A stretch of DNA of 64,000 nt from Rhodococcus xishaensis (lineage in GTDB: Bacteria; Actinomycetota; Actinomycetes; Mycobacteriales; Mycobacteriaceae), in contig NZ_RKLO01000006.1 of the NCBI RefSeq assembly GCF_004011825.1, positions 62,001 through 126,000 of the forward strand, read 5' to 3'. Below the pieces are notes generated by a model. That model saw only the letters and a program-made list of their open reading frames with translations, was not told where the DNA came from and made no database searches. The translations under genes and the position numbers were made by a program. Positions 55,302-58,619 of the stretch are shown here, piece by piece; positions within the stretch are counted from its first letter, which is position 1, and each line of letters opens with the position of its first letter.

Positions 55302-56369
55302 ATGGGTAAGCACCACAAGGAGCGCGTGGGAAAGGCTGCGCGCGTCGCGATCGTTCCATCCGCTGCGGCCGCCGTGATCGTGGCCGCGTCCGGCGCGGCA
55401 CAGGCAGCGCCGAACCAACTGCCCTCGCAGGGTGGTGTCACATCCGCTCCCGAGACGCAGGGCGGCGTGACGTCAGCTCCGTCCACACAAGGCGGCGTCA
55501 CCTCGGCGCCCGAGCAGCCTGAGCCCCTGTACTGGGTTGAACTGCCGGCCCAGTACCAGAACATCGAATATCAGCCGCTCGAAAACTACGACTACGAGAC
55601 CAACACCTACGACGCGCCCGACGACTACCAGGTCGAACCCATCCAAATCCAGGAACTGCACCTGCCGACGCAAGTAGAGCCCACCGCGCCGATCATCGCT
55701 CCGCGCGACACGCTGCGTCTGGGCACTCACCATGCGCCGCAGCCCAACTGGGTCACCGACGGCGACCTCGCCCGTACCAACAACACCTCCGCCGTCATCG
55801 AGGCCGAGGTGTCGAACTTCTGGCGTTCGATCGGCGTCGAGACCAGTCGTGCCGACCGGGTCGCCGCCGCAGGGCTCGGAGGGGCTGCAGCCGGTGCGGT
55901 TGCATTCGGCACTGGGTTCGCCGCGATGGGTGCAGCGGTCGGCGGAGGCCCTATCAATCCCGTCGGCGCTGCCGCCGGTGCGGCGCTCTTGGGCATCCCC
56001 GCGGCTGTGGCGTTTGGCGCCGTGGGCGCTGCGGTCGGTACCGCCGTCGGCGCCGGCGATCTCGGCGAGCCGAAGGACATGTCGATCCCGGACATCGACA
56101 AGCCGGGAATCCAGGCCTGGACGGAGGAGACCCTCGCGCAGTGGGAGGCCACCCCTGGCCTCAACTTGGCTGCGGCGGCGGTGCGCGGCGTCGCCGCTTT
56201 GGCGCCCGAAGTCGACCGCCAGGCACGCGATTTGGTTGCGTCAGTGCCCGGCGGTGATCAGTTCCTCGAGGGTGTGGACGAGCGTCTGGAGACGTTCTAC
56301 AGCGACTCGTCCCTTGGTCTCGCATCAAATATGATCAGCGACGCCGTCGGTACCGGCATCCAGGCATGA
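55302..56369 (+). CDS. Secreted glycine-zipper protein with QGGVTSAP repeats, function unknown
   Basis: The 355-residue protein has a signal peptide (about residues 1-36, VAASGAAQAA). Three QGGVTSAP repeats with Glu/Ser/Thr linkers follow (residues 43-70), then a Tyr/Pro/Gln-rich stretch (70-130). A long Gly/Ala membrane-like region with GxxxG spacing covers about residues 188-250. The C-terminus is amphipathic and Asp/Glu-rich. No enzyme motif is seen. GAGGGGGAA precedes the ATG. The layout suggests a cell-envelope protein. It begins a three-gene cassette with the two following genes. Confidence 0.75.
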   Translation: MGKHHKERVGKAARVAIVPSAAAAVIVAASGAAQAAPNQLPSQGGVTSAPETQGGVTSAPSTQGGVTSAPEQPEPLYWVELPAQYQNIEYQPLENYDYETNTYDAPDDYQVEPIQIQELHLPTQVEPTAPIIAPRDTLRLGTHHAPQPNWVTDGDLARTNNTSAVIEAEVSNFWRSIGVETSRADRVAAAGLGGAAAGAVAFGTGFAAMGAAVGGGPINPVGAAAGAALLGIPAAVAFGAVGAAVGTAVGAGDLGEPKDMSIPDIDKPGIQAWTEETLAQWEATPGLNLAAAAVRGVAALAPEVDRQARDLVASVPGGDQFLEGVDERLETFYSDSSLGLASNMISDAVGTGIQA

Positions 56370-56374
56370 GACAG

Positions 56375-56406
56375 GTGGGGCGGACCCGGGCGCGGGTCCG
56401 CCCCAC
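56375..56406 (+). terminator. Perfect hairpin between gene 1 and gene 2 of the cassette
   Basis: A perfect 14-base stem (GTGGGGCGGACCCG and complement) with a four-base loop starts five bases after the stop at 56369. It ends 15 bases before the next ATG, just before that gene's AGGAGG. It may terminate most transcripts and so set the ratio of gene 1 to gene 2. Confidence 0.8.
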
Positions 56407-56421
56407 TCCGCAGGAGGACAC

Positions 56422-57846
56422 ATGGCGACGGACAACCGGATGGGTCACTCGCTGTTTCCGGACGTGACCGAGCACTACGAACGGCTTCCTGTCACAGGGG
56501 AATCCGCGCCACAGCAACCTCCAGCCGAACCGCCGGTCGACCGAGCTCCGGTCCCGGACGTCGAGTCGGCACCGGCTCCGGTTGTCGAGCCATCTCTGGC
56601 TCCGGAGATCGATCCGACCCCGGTTCCCGATGTCGAACCGGCCCAGGACGTGTCGCCGGGTGACGGCCCGGTCGGCGCCGTCAACCCCCAACCCGCACCA
56701 ACCTCGGACCTGCCCCCCGACTTCGACCAGATGCCGACGTGGCTGGTCGCTCCAGAGTCACCGGCCCCCGCGCGCAAGGAGCGTAGGGCGCGCAAGGAGC
56801 GTAAGGCGCGCAAGGAGCGTAGGGCGCGCAAGGCGCCCCCGGAGCGCACGGCGCCCATGGTGCCCACGGCGCCCCCGGCGCCTCCGGAGCGTACGACGCC
56901 CACGGCGCCCCCGGTGCCCCCGGTGCCCCCGGTGCCCCCGGAGCGTACGACGCCCACGGCGCCCCCAGTGCCGACGCCCACGGCGCCCCCAGTGCCCCCG
57001 GCGCCTCCGGAGCGCGCTGCGCCCACGGTGCCCCAGGAGCGCACGGCGCCCACGGTGCCCCAGGAGCGCACGGCGCCCACGGCGCCCCCGACGCCCCCGA
57101 CGCCCCCGACGCCCACGACGCCCAAGGAGTCCCCGGAGCCCACGGCGCCCGCGGCGCCCCCAGTGCCCCTGGCGCCCCCGGAGCGCACGGCGCCCTTGGC
57201 ACCCACGGTGCCCTCGGAGCGCACGGCGCCCCCGGCGCCCACTGTGCCCTCGGAGCGCACGGCGCCCCCGGCGCCCACAGAGCCCATGGTGTCCACGGCG
57301 CCCCCGGAGCGCGCGGCGGAGAAGAGCACGTCCGACCGCAGGAAGCCCCTGTTGATCGGAGCGCTCGTGGTCTCGGTTCTCGCGATAGCCACGACAGCAA
57401 CCCTCGCGCTGGGCGGGGATACCGACGGCACGCCGAATCCGGAAGGCGGCACGTCTGCGGCGCAGGCGGCGCCGGCGGCAGCCTCGGACTCTGCCTGGTG
57501 TGAGGAATCGGCATCCGGCGGCCGCAGCGTCGGCCGCGGTCCCGGCAACACTTCCGACGGCCCCGGCGTCATCCGGGCCTTCGACCACGCTTACTACGTC
57601 GAACGGGACGGCGCCCGGGTCGCGTCGCTCATGGTCGCCCCCAGCGCTGTTCCGGACATCCAGAAGTGGATCGACGATGTCCCACTCGGCACAGAGCACT
57701 GTGTCACTATCACGTCCACCCCGGACCCGAACGTGTATGCCGTTGAACTCGGCCTGCGAGGGGCAACTGAGGGCGTCATCCTGCAGCGGATCACCGTCGC
57801 CCCTTCGCCCGAGGGATACAAGATCGCGAAGGTGGAGGACGCGTAG
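56422..57846 (+). CDS. Proline-rich single-pass membrane protein with low-complexity repeats
   Basis: The 474-residue protein has four parts. Residues 1-112 are acidic and Pro-rich. Residues 113-133 are a basic KERRARKERKARKER run. Residues 134-300 are PPERTAPTAP-type repeats. A transmembrane helix (LLIGALVVSVLAIATTATLAL, about 311-331) is followed by an outer domain of about 125 residues with two cysteines (WCEE and EHCVTI). With no signal peptide, the repeat half should be cytoplasmic (N-in). AGGAGG precedes the ATG. The stop overlaps the next gene by one base, so a complex with the MinD-like protein is plausible. Confidence 0.75.
   Translation: MATDNRMGHSLFPDVTEHYERLPVTGESAPQQPPAEPPVDRAPVPDVESAPAPVVEPSLAPEIDPTPVPDVEPAQDVSPGDGPVGAVNPQPAPTSDLPPDFDQMPTWLVAPESPAPARKERRARKERKARKERRARKAPPERTAPMVPTAPPAPPERTTPTAPPVPPVPPVPPERTTPTAPPVPTPTAPPVPPAPPERAAPTVPQERTAPTVPQERTAPTAPPTPPTPPTPTTPKESPEPTAPAAPPVPLAPPERTAPLAPTVPSERTAPPAPTVPSERTAPPAPTEPMVSTAPPERAAEKSTSDRRKPLLIGALVVSVLAIATTATLALGGDTDGTPNPEGGTSAAQAAPAAASDSAWCEESASGGRSVGRGPGNTSDGPGVIRAFDHAYYVERDGARVASLMVAPSAVPDIQKWIDDVPLGTEHCVTITSTPDPNVYAVELGLRGATEGVILQRITVAPSPEGYKIAKVEDA
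56761..57310. repeat. GC-rich tandem-like repeat region
   Basis: The stretch is built from recurring GCGCAAGGAGCGTA-type units and then GCGCCC-rich units such as GAGCGCACGGCGCCC and GGTGCCCCCGGTGCCC. It contains no stop codon in several frames of both strands, which creates long false reading frames. Such repeats are prone to copy-number change. Confidence 0.85.
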
Positions 57847-58619
57847 TGAGCAATGTGGTCTCGCTGCGTCGGGTGCCGAACATGCCGGAGCCCGAGCGCG
57901 TGTCCGCGTTGGTCGTTGCCGGATCCGGTGGCGCCGCGACGACCACGACGGCCTATGGGCTTGCGACCGCACTGCGACTCGGAACCGGGCTGGAGGTTTC
58001 GGCGGTCGACTCCACGAGCGATGGCGGAAACCTGCTGTCCCGAACGGGATTCGAGGCCGTCGACCCGGTACGGTCGATTCGGCAGTTCGAGTCCCGTATG
58101 GCACTGACGTCGGCGGGCGCCGTGGTGGTCGGCAGCAGTGACGGGCAGCCCAGCGATCCGGCGATCGTCGACGAACTCCTCGCGGCCCGTCACAGCGCGC
58201 GCGTCCACGACGTCGGCACGGCTCTTCGTTCGACACGGCTGGCCCCGTTGATCCGGTCCGGCGCCGCTCTGGTGATGGTGGCGCCCGCGCGCTCCGAACC
58301 GCTGAGCCGCATGCGCGACGCCCTCGCGTGGGTGATGTCGGCGTACGGCCCGCAGGTGCTCGGCGAGGCGATCGTCGTCGTCTCGCATCAGCTGCCCGAC
58401 GCGCCGGTCGACCTCGGTCCCATCCGAGACGCCCTGTCGCCGCGCGTTGCGGGGTTCGTCGAGGTTCCGTTCGACCCAGCCCTCGCCGAGCCGGGGGTCC
58501 TCGATCACCGCAGGCTCGCGCCACCGACCATCGACGCCTGGGCGGACGCGTTGGAAGTGATCGGCGGGCTTCTCTCGAGCACGGACGACCGATCCGGAGC
58601 GGGCAGCGAACTCGCCTAG
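57846..58619 (+). CDS. MinD/ParA-like protein with a degenerate P-loop
   Basis: The 257-residue protein has the layout of a MinD/ParA-type SIMIBI ATPase: a P-loop region at about residue 27 and a following VSAVDSTSDGGNLLSRTG segment where the family has VLLVDxDxxGG. The P-loop reads VVAGSGGAATTTTAYGLA, lacking both lysines of the deviant Walker A motif (KGGxGKT). ATP hydrolysis is therefore doubtful. The GTG at 57846 overlaps the stop of the membrane-protein gene, implying a joint role. Similar domains occur in type VII secretion accessory proteins, but no ESX genes are nearby. Confidence 0.65.
   Translation: MSNVVSLRRVPNMPEPERVSALVVAGSGGAATTTTAYGLATALRLGTGLEVSAVDSTSDGGNLLSRTGFEAVDPVRSIRQFESRMALTSAGAVVVGSSDGQPSDPAIVDELLAARHSARVHDVGTALRSTRLAPLIRSGAALVMVAPARSEPLSRMRDALAWVMSAYGPQVLGEAIVVVSHQLPDAPVDLGPIRDALSPRVAGFVEVPFDPALAEPGVLDHRRLAPPTIDAWADALEVIGGLLSSTDDRSGAGSELA

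Follow-up and report, generated by a model that had tools for sequence, protein, structure and literature searches.

In the stretch of the Rhodococcus xishaensis genome analyzed here (the window, 64,000 nucleotides; genome G000, contig C19, positions 62,001 to 126,000; the genome comprises 3.7 Mb in 22 contigs), three adjacent genes, designated g1, g2 and g3, encode a secreted glycine-zipper-like protein, a one-pass membrane protein and a MinD/ParA-fold protein with a lysine-free P-loop. The three genes form a genuine, conserved unit, the best reading of which is the envelope block of a conjugation region persisting as an orphan on the chromosome. We give about an even chance to its being a copy, now fixed on the chromosome, of the envelope block found in conjugative plasmids of rhodococci. 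All three genes are real open reading frames (ORFs), arranged in the order g1–g2–g3 on the plus strand, with a one-base overlap of g2 and g3 in the window copy. The adjacency, order, overlap and lysine-free P-loop had been described in the same way in an earlier note, based on the letters of the window, and were confirmed. The note had also proposed an undescribed free-standing system, which was not borne out, since the closest relatives of the trio head type IV secretion system (T4SS) operons of conjugative plasmids. By g3, Rhodococcus spongiicola is the closest relative with a name (96% identity), and loci of the same genus, where named, belong to Rhodococcus or Prescottella. Loci are numbered below with L and genomes with G.

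Plasmid counterparts of the trio

Homologues of g3 are encoded in 85 plasmid records, in 72 of them over at least 80% of g3. The records belong to Rhodococcus (54), Prescottella (29), Hoyosella (1) and Nocardia (1), and 61 of the 85 were typed as conjugative. As annotated examples, the plasmids pREC1, pCP135 and that of SGAir0479 were taken; in each of the three, the trio is flanked by a cutinase gene on one side and a T4SS operon on the other. The gene order on the plasmids is cutinase, g1, g2, g3, several small genes, a SCO6880-family protein and an ATP-binding protein, followed by an M23 peptidase, a TraM-recognition (TraG-type) protein and DUF4913. In Pfam, the pREC1 proteins match the Cutinase, M23 with SLT, and TraG/T4SS coupling domains; the ATP-binding protein of pREC1 has weak VirB4-type matches in NCBIfam. 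Judged by the same gene order and by homology, the trio is a block carried by pREC1-type plasmids.

Circular Rhodococcus plasmids of the pREC1 type are described in a review as having a MOB_F relaxase and a T4SS (PMC6852188). For another plasmid, of R. equi, a secreted cutinase has been suggested to aid the translocation complex through the envelope, and the same article cites work in which a cutinase promoted the conjugation of pFiD188 (PMC6794481). In the titles and abstract openings of open-access literature on Rhodococcus conjugation, MinD-like proteins and T4SS, no description of the trio was found; likewise, no paper in the open-access literature was found under the names ‘insoluble domain protein’, ‘DUF6668’ or ‘SCO6880 family’, the first of which, along with ‘hypothetical protein’, is the annotation of g1 homologues on plasmids.

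Chromosomal copies, constraint and phylogeny

Among the 14 genomes of the genus, g3 was found in 12, g1 in 13 and the extracytoplasmic domain of g2 in all; g1 was missed only in G091, where the locus lies at a contig edge with less than 1 kb visible upstream. A tblastn search with 24 pREC1 proteins (E 1e-4) detected no T4SS or cutinase homologue in the 12 chromosomal g3 loci, of up to 20 kb each (that of G091 is cut by the contig end), and matched only g1, g2 and g3. Flanking genes are shared among these loci; accordingly, the site is fixed.

The SCO6880-family marker of the T4SS is present in a single genome of the 14, namely, G130, on a second contig (a 104-kb plasmid). This genome contains the chromosomal trio as well as a T4SS-plasmid copy, and the two g3 proteins are 63% identical. 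Such coexistence, together with the 29 records of g3-bearing plasmids from the sister species P. equi, would fit a chromosomal trio acting on plasmid transfer, with a recipient-side, helper or exclusion function towards plasmids carrying the same block. We consider this function unlikely: the coexistence in G130 demonstrates neither help nor exclusion, and with the marker in just one genome, selection by such plasmids would be intermittent.

For the chromosomal copies, the median pairwise dN/dS is 0.153 for g3 (66 pairs), 0.212 for the g2 domain (78 pairs, those with L046 left out) and 0.294 for g1 (78 pairs, including the broken L046, which gives the highest pair), compared with 0.099, 0.133, 0.221 and 0.325 for four flanking genes. 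By this measure, the constraint on g3 and on the g2 domain matches that on the neighbouring genes, and g1 is at the loose end of the range. The loss of the neighbouring T4SS genes, as well as the broken frames of g1 and g2 in L046 (G183, a genome 79% complete), might suggest a passive, decaying remnant of a plasmid. This is largely refuted by the constraint, which is as strong as in the flanking genes, and by the intact frames of all other chromosomal copies readable whole, and we give it very little credence.

A g3 tree of 39 rows unites the 12 chromosomal copies in one group (SH-aLRT 84) beside the plasmid copies, which require two changes. Capture of the trio from a plasmid is the simpler reading of this tree. 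The reverse direction, in which an old chromosomal envelope module of Mycobacteriales was captured by plasmids to aid the channel through the mycolate layer, is less probable, though it has a substantial share of the likelihood. It is favoured by the wide occurrence of g2-domain proteins (120 of the 201 genomes of the family), by g2–g3 pairs of other genera in loci without a detected T4SS, such as L064, and by a version of the module with a lysine-bearing MinD-like protein in L107. Opposed to it is the pattern within the closest clade, where plasmid copies are more diverse and the chromosomal copies are one shallow group at one site.

Table 1. Features of the trio in the window (positions counted from the first nucleotide of the window)
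Feature	Position	Strand	Description
g1, secreted protein	55302..56369	+	Signal-peptide-like N-terminus, three QGGVT repeats, Gly/Ala-rich (glycine-zipper-like) stretch
Intercistronic hairpin	56374..56407	+	15-bp stem (one G-T at base), 4-base loop, no T-run
g2, one-pass membrane protein	56422..57846	+	Cytoplasmic part rich in Pro, about 309 residues long
LFPDVTEHY motif of g2, residues 11–19	56452..56478	+	Candidate site of g3 docking
PTWL motif of g2, residues 105–108	56734..56745	+	Retained even in copies without LFPDV and g3
Predicted membrane segment of g2	57349..57405	+	Hydropathy
Extracytoplasmic domain of g2	57424..57843	+	Two conserved Cys (codons 57499–57501 and 57700–57702)
g3, MinD/ParA-fold protein	57846..58619	+	P-loop without lysine
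P-loop of g3, VVAGSGGAATTTT, residues 23–35	57912..57950	+	Alignment of homologues

The lysine-less MinD-like protein g3

The SIMIBI-type (MinD/ParA) fold, as first proposed, extends over most of g3, and the profile of g3 aligns with a set of lysine-bearing MinD-like proteins over 240 columns with a probability of 99.8. The canonical deviant Walker A motif, with its signature and P-loop lysines, is absent. The fetched loci were searched with a profile, and ORFs scoring at least 140 bits were taken as strong homologues (57 ORFs at 56 distinct places, L043 being the same plasmid as L057); none of the 57 has any lysine in the P-loop columns. Weaker matches (35–120 bits) mostly have KGGVGKT or a similar motif; in two loci a lysine-bearing MinD-like protein is encoded between an integrase/XerC-type gene and the gene of ribosomal protein S2. 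Since the loss of the lysine is family-wide and the dN/dS is low, decay of g3 is rejected, and the loss is a trait of the family. Of the three outcomes that the earlier note had named as refuting, two, a third protein lacking the SIMIBI fold and homologues retaining the lysine, did not occur. Residues R66 and R149 are invariant in an alignment of 28 rows, and a replacement of the P-loop lysine by either would be a guess.

No NCBIfam match to g3 was found up to E 1, and one of the 28 rows matches TadZ_N (E 0.0023). This match and the likeness of the P-loop to that of Ssd and TadZ are what can be cited for a role of the trio as an accessory to type VII (ESX) or Tad secretion. We regard such a role as highly improbable, considering that the plasmid neighbours of the trio are T4SS genes and that EccD and Ssd of the window genome are encoded on other contigs. 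The link to type VII secretion raised earlier was not supported, as far as EccD is concerned, the only ESX gene searched for, which is present in a single copy on contig C1 and not on C19. Among viral contigs, 135 stretches with the pattern were found, none of them related to g3.

The plasmid gene following g3 (p5; L041:20777-21328) encodes a second P-loop protein, DUF6668-like with a Pfam match below the cut-off, which is lysine-less in most copies (GAHGGAGVST); the pREC1 copy retains the first lysine (SKGGAGVST). The chromosomal orphan trio has no p5. A close relationship of p5 to g3 was rejected, as only the P-loop aligns.

The membrane protein g2 and its association with g3

A g2-domain ORF is located upstream of g3, on the same strand and within 1.5 kb, in 53 of the 57 strong homologues (exceptions L062, L063, L065 and L066). 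The reading of the genes as one unit was upheld to this extent; for 16 of 69 g2 ORFs, two of them in the same genus, it fails, as g3 is missing. Nearly all copies from the genus and from plasmids show a stop/start overlap between g2 and g3, of 1 or 4 bases; the exceptions are the broken L046 as well as L059 and L060 (one-base gap).

In the extracytoplasmic domain of g2, the second cysteine is invariant and the first is present in at least 90% of 27 rows. A test for an NTF2-like fold of the VirB8/TcpC type gave a SnoaL_2 match in one of the 27 rows (E 0.044). Homology of the domain to the plasmid proteins p13, p14, p15, p20 and p23 was rejected, with probabilities below 1%.

The LFPDV motif is located near the N-terminus of g2 in all 12 genus copies with g3. 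In G118 and G173, g1 and g2 are present at the same site with no trace of g3 there; their g2, with just some 50 cytoplasmic residues, lacks LFPDV and retains PTWL. In the whole set of 69 g2 ORFs (L043, the second piece of the broken L046 g2 and L121, at a contig edge, were left out), the pattern LFPD[VLP] or W[FY]P[PSA][FVLI] was found in 37 of the 53 near a lysine-less g3 and in none of the 16 without g3; the Fisher P of 3e-7 is merely descriptive, since the pattern was picked after inspection and the sequences are related. The LFPDV region is a putative docking peptide for g3, and its loss where g3 is missing may mark where g3 docks.

The hairpin behind g1

The hairpin, which is rich in G+C, begins 4 bases past the g1 stop codon in the window copy. 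Each of the 12 genus copies in which the end of g1 is readable has a perfect stem of 11–17 bp that starts 3–6 bases past the stop; it is longer than the longest of 200 shuffles in 11 of the 12 and equal to it in L051. The alignment of the 12 genus sequences contains 13 consensus pairs, four of them with changes on both sides. On this alignment, the hairpin is conserved in the genus with compensatory changes. Nine T4SS-type copies were tested, and in six of them the stem measures 12–14 bp, partly with quite different sequence. An Rfam search gave one chance-level match and no known family, and scans for sigma-70 promoters and T-tailed terminators gave no match. The simplest reading would be a partial terminator, or a stabiliser of the mRNA, by which g1 is raised over g2 and g3.

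Other arrangements of g1 and g2

Beyond the genomes of the family, g2-domain proteins are encoded in 219 plasmid records. The linear plasmids pLP337 and pROB02 (L123:6379-13146 and L124:5465-13251) carry, in this order, genes for an FtsK/SpoIIIE-domain protein, a small protein, ParA (KGGVGKTP), g1 and g2, and the same set was found on contig C10 of G118 (L081). The window g1 is 57–58% and 47–48% identical, in two blocks, to g1 of the pLP337/pROB02 type. Plasmid pR1CP2 carries g1, g2, cutinase and M23 genes. The FtsK-domain proteins of pLP337 and pROB02 weakly match plasmid_TraB, and a second transfer mechanism using g1 and g2 is possible. That g1 and g2 serve two unrelated DNA pumps was not upheld, as a divergently oriented gene next to that of the FtsK-domain protein encodes an AAA_10 ATPase that is weakly TcpF/VirB4-like; with this ATPase, the two plasmids are not established as T4SS-free.

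Locus L107 (2512-6024) contains genes for a lysine-bearing MinD-like protein, g2 and a secreted protein with QGGVT repeats near a Ser/Thr kinase gene, apparently a module with an intact ATPase. In L064 (10336-12862), a chromosomal g2–g3 pair adjoins a gene for glutamate synthase, and upstream of the pair a secreted protein with SQPGVT repeats is encoded; similar chromosomal pairs occur in the other-genus loci L067–L070 and L079.

From these arrangements, a trans-envelope g1–g2 module of mycolate bacteria can be envisaged, in which the MinD-like partner is interchangeable and may or may not have the lysines. Such a module would be autonomous on chromosomes and would have been incorporated into conjugation regions of more than one kind, and a short peptide of g2 would read the lysine-less MinD-like protein, for positioning without a lysine-based ATP switch. 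We advance this only tentatively and think it rather improbable; its odds are lowered by the TcpF/VirB4-like ATPase of pLP337 and pROB02.

Proposed function and its significance

The function of the trio, like the direction of its transfer, is inferred. The protein g2 would be an inner-membrane tether, the extracytoplasmic domain of which, probably disulfide-bonded, would hold the secreted g1; the glycine-zipper stretch of g1 would insert in or line the outer (mycolate) layer. The cytoplasmic LFPDV–EHY peptide of g2 would dock on g3, a MinD-like protein that would act as a scaffold or as a clamp for positioning and would do without the usual ATP switch of two lysines, and the hairpin would allow g1 to be made in excess of g2 and g3. 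On plasmids, the complex may prepare the envelope-crossing site of the transfer channel, beside the cutinase and peptidoglycan enzymes; on the chromosome, with no channel, the trio may retain the envelope-organizing part of this job. The retention of a lone chromosomal block across the genus suggests that the plasmid part has, or shares, an envelope job of its own.

Several observations weigh against the chromosomally fixed plasmid block and the parts assigned to it. The support of the chromosomal group in the g3 tree is just 84 and the root is a midpoint, so the plasmid-to-chromosome direction is not proven. Nine loci of other genera (L064, L067–L071, L073, L078 and L079) contain g2 and g3 with no T4SS detected by pREC1-protein queries, which a diverged T4SS could escape; such pairs would fit an older chromosomal module. 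The g2 domain does not match in sequence any of the candidate channel proteins (single-pass or lipoprotein) that the plasmids themselves encode. As for docking, 16 g2 ORFs accompanied by g3 lack the motif, which was chosen post hoc in related sequences, and G118 and G173 share one arrangement and look like one event, so that the loss of the motif is a single case. As for the hairpin, stems are shorter by the same measure in three of the nine T4SS-type copies (L007, L057 and L061); the perfect-stem count is short in L007, L046, L057, L061, L074, L075 and L081; and with three plasmid copies added, the alignment of 15 sequences retains 6 consensus pairs, one of them double-changed, because chromosomal and plasmid stems align badly.

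The passage of conjugation machines through the mycolic-acid outer layer is poorly understood. If the trio is a fixed plasmid block, its three small genes and the natural g3-minus variant would provide testable parts for envelope crossing, free of the transfer channel; g3 would be a natural MinD-like protein under selection without ATP-binding lysines; and a plasmid-type block would have become fixed in the genus that includes R. equi and its close relatives.

Comparison with known systems

The closest counterpart is the conjugation/T4SS region of the pREC1 backbone (Rhodococcus erythropolis PR4), which other circular plasmids of Rhodococcus have in common with it and where all three orthologues are present in the same order and spacing and g3 is 66% identical to that of the window. 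On pREC1 the trio lies between the cutinase gene and the T4SS operon, whereas in the window neither was found within 20 kb. The region of pLP337 and pROB02 resembles the window in having g1 and g2 homologues side by side, but differs in the FtsK/SpoIIIE-domain protein, small protein and lysine-bearing ParA encoded upstream, in a short g2 without LFPDV and in the lack of g3.

A lysine-less P-loop is not new by itself, the precedents being Ssd and TadZ. The actinobacterial Ssd/CpaE-like family (TIGR03815) has, like g3, a MinD-like fold with a lysine-free P-loop (GGCGGAGASS); the profile match of g3 to Ssd (alignment from 9 of 10 loci) is partial, covering 145 columns with a probability of 91, and is weaker than that to lysine-bearing MinD-like proteins. 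Ssd of the window genome lies elsewhere, on another contig than g3. TadZ of E. rectale, which has neither lysine, is reported still to hydrolyse ATP (PMC10482377); given these precedents and the ATPase activity of TadZ, the loss of lysines does not by itself show g3 to be a pseudo-ATPase.

Among conjugation proteins, g3 resembles the MinD/ParA-like positioning proteins StbB of R388 and VirC1 of Agrobacterium. StbB is described as needed for the polar placement of R388 and, when StbA is present, for transfer (PMC3098194). The same source gives StbB a deviant Walker A motif, whereas g3 has no P-loop lysines and is accompanied by g1 and g2.

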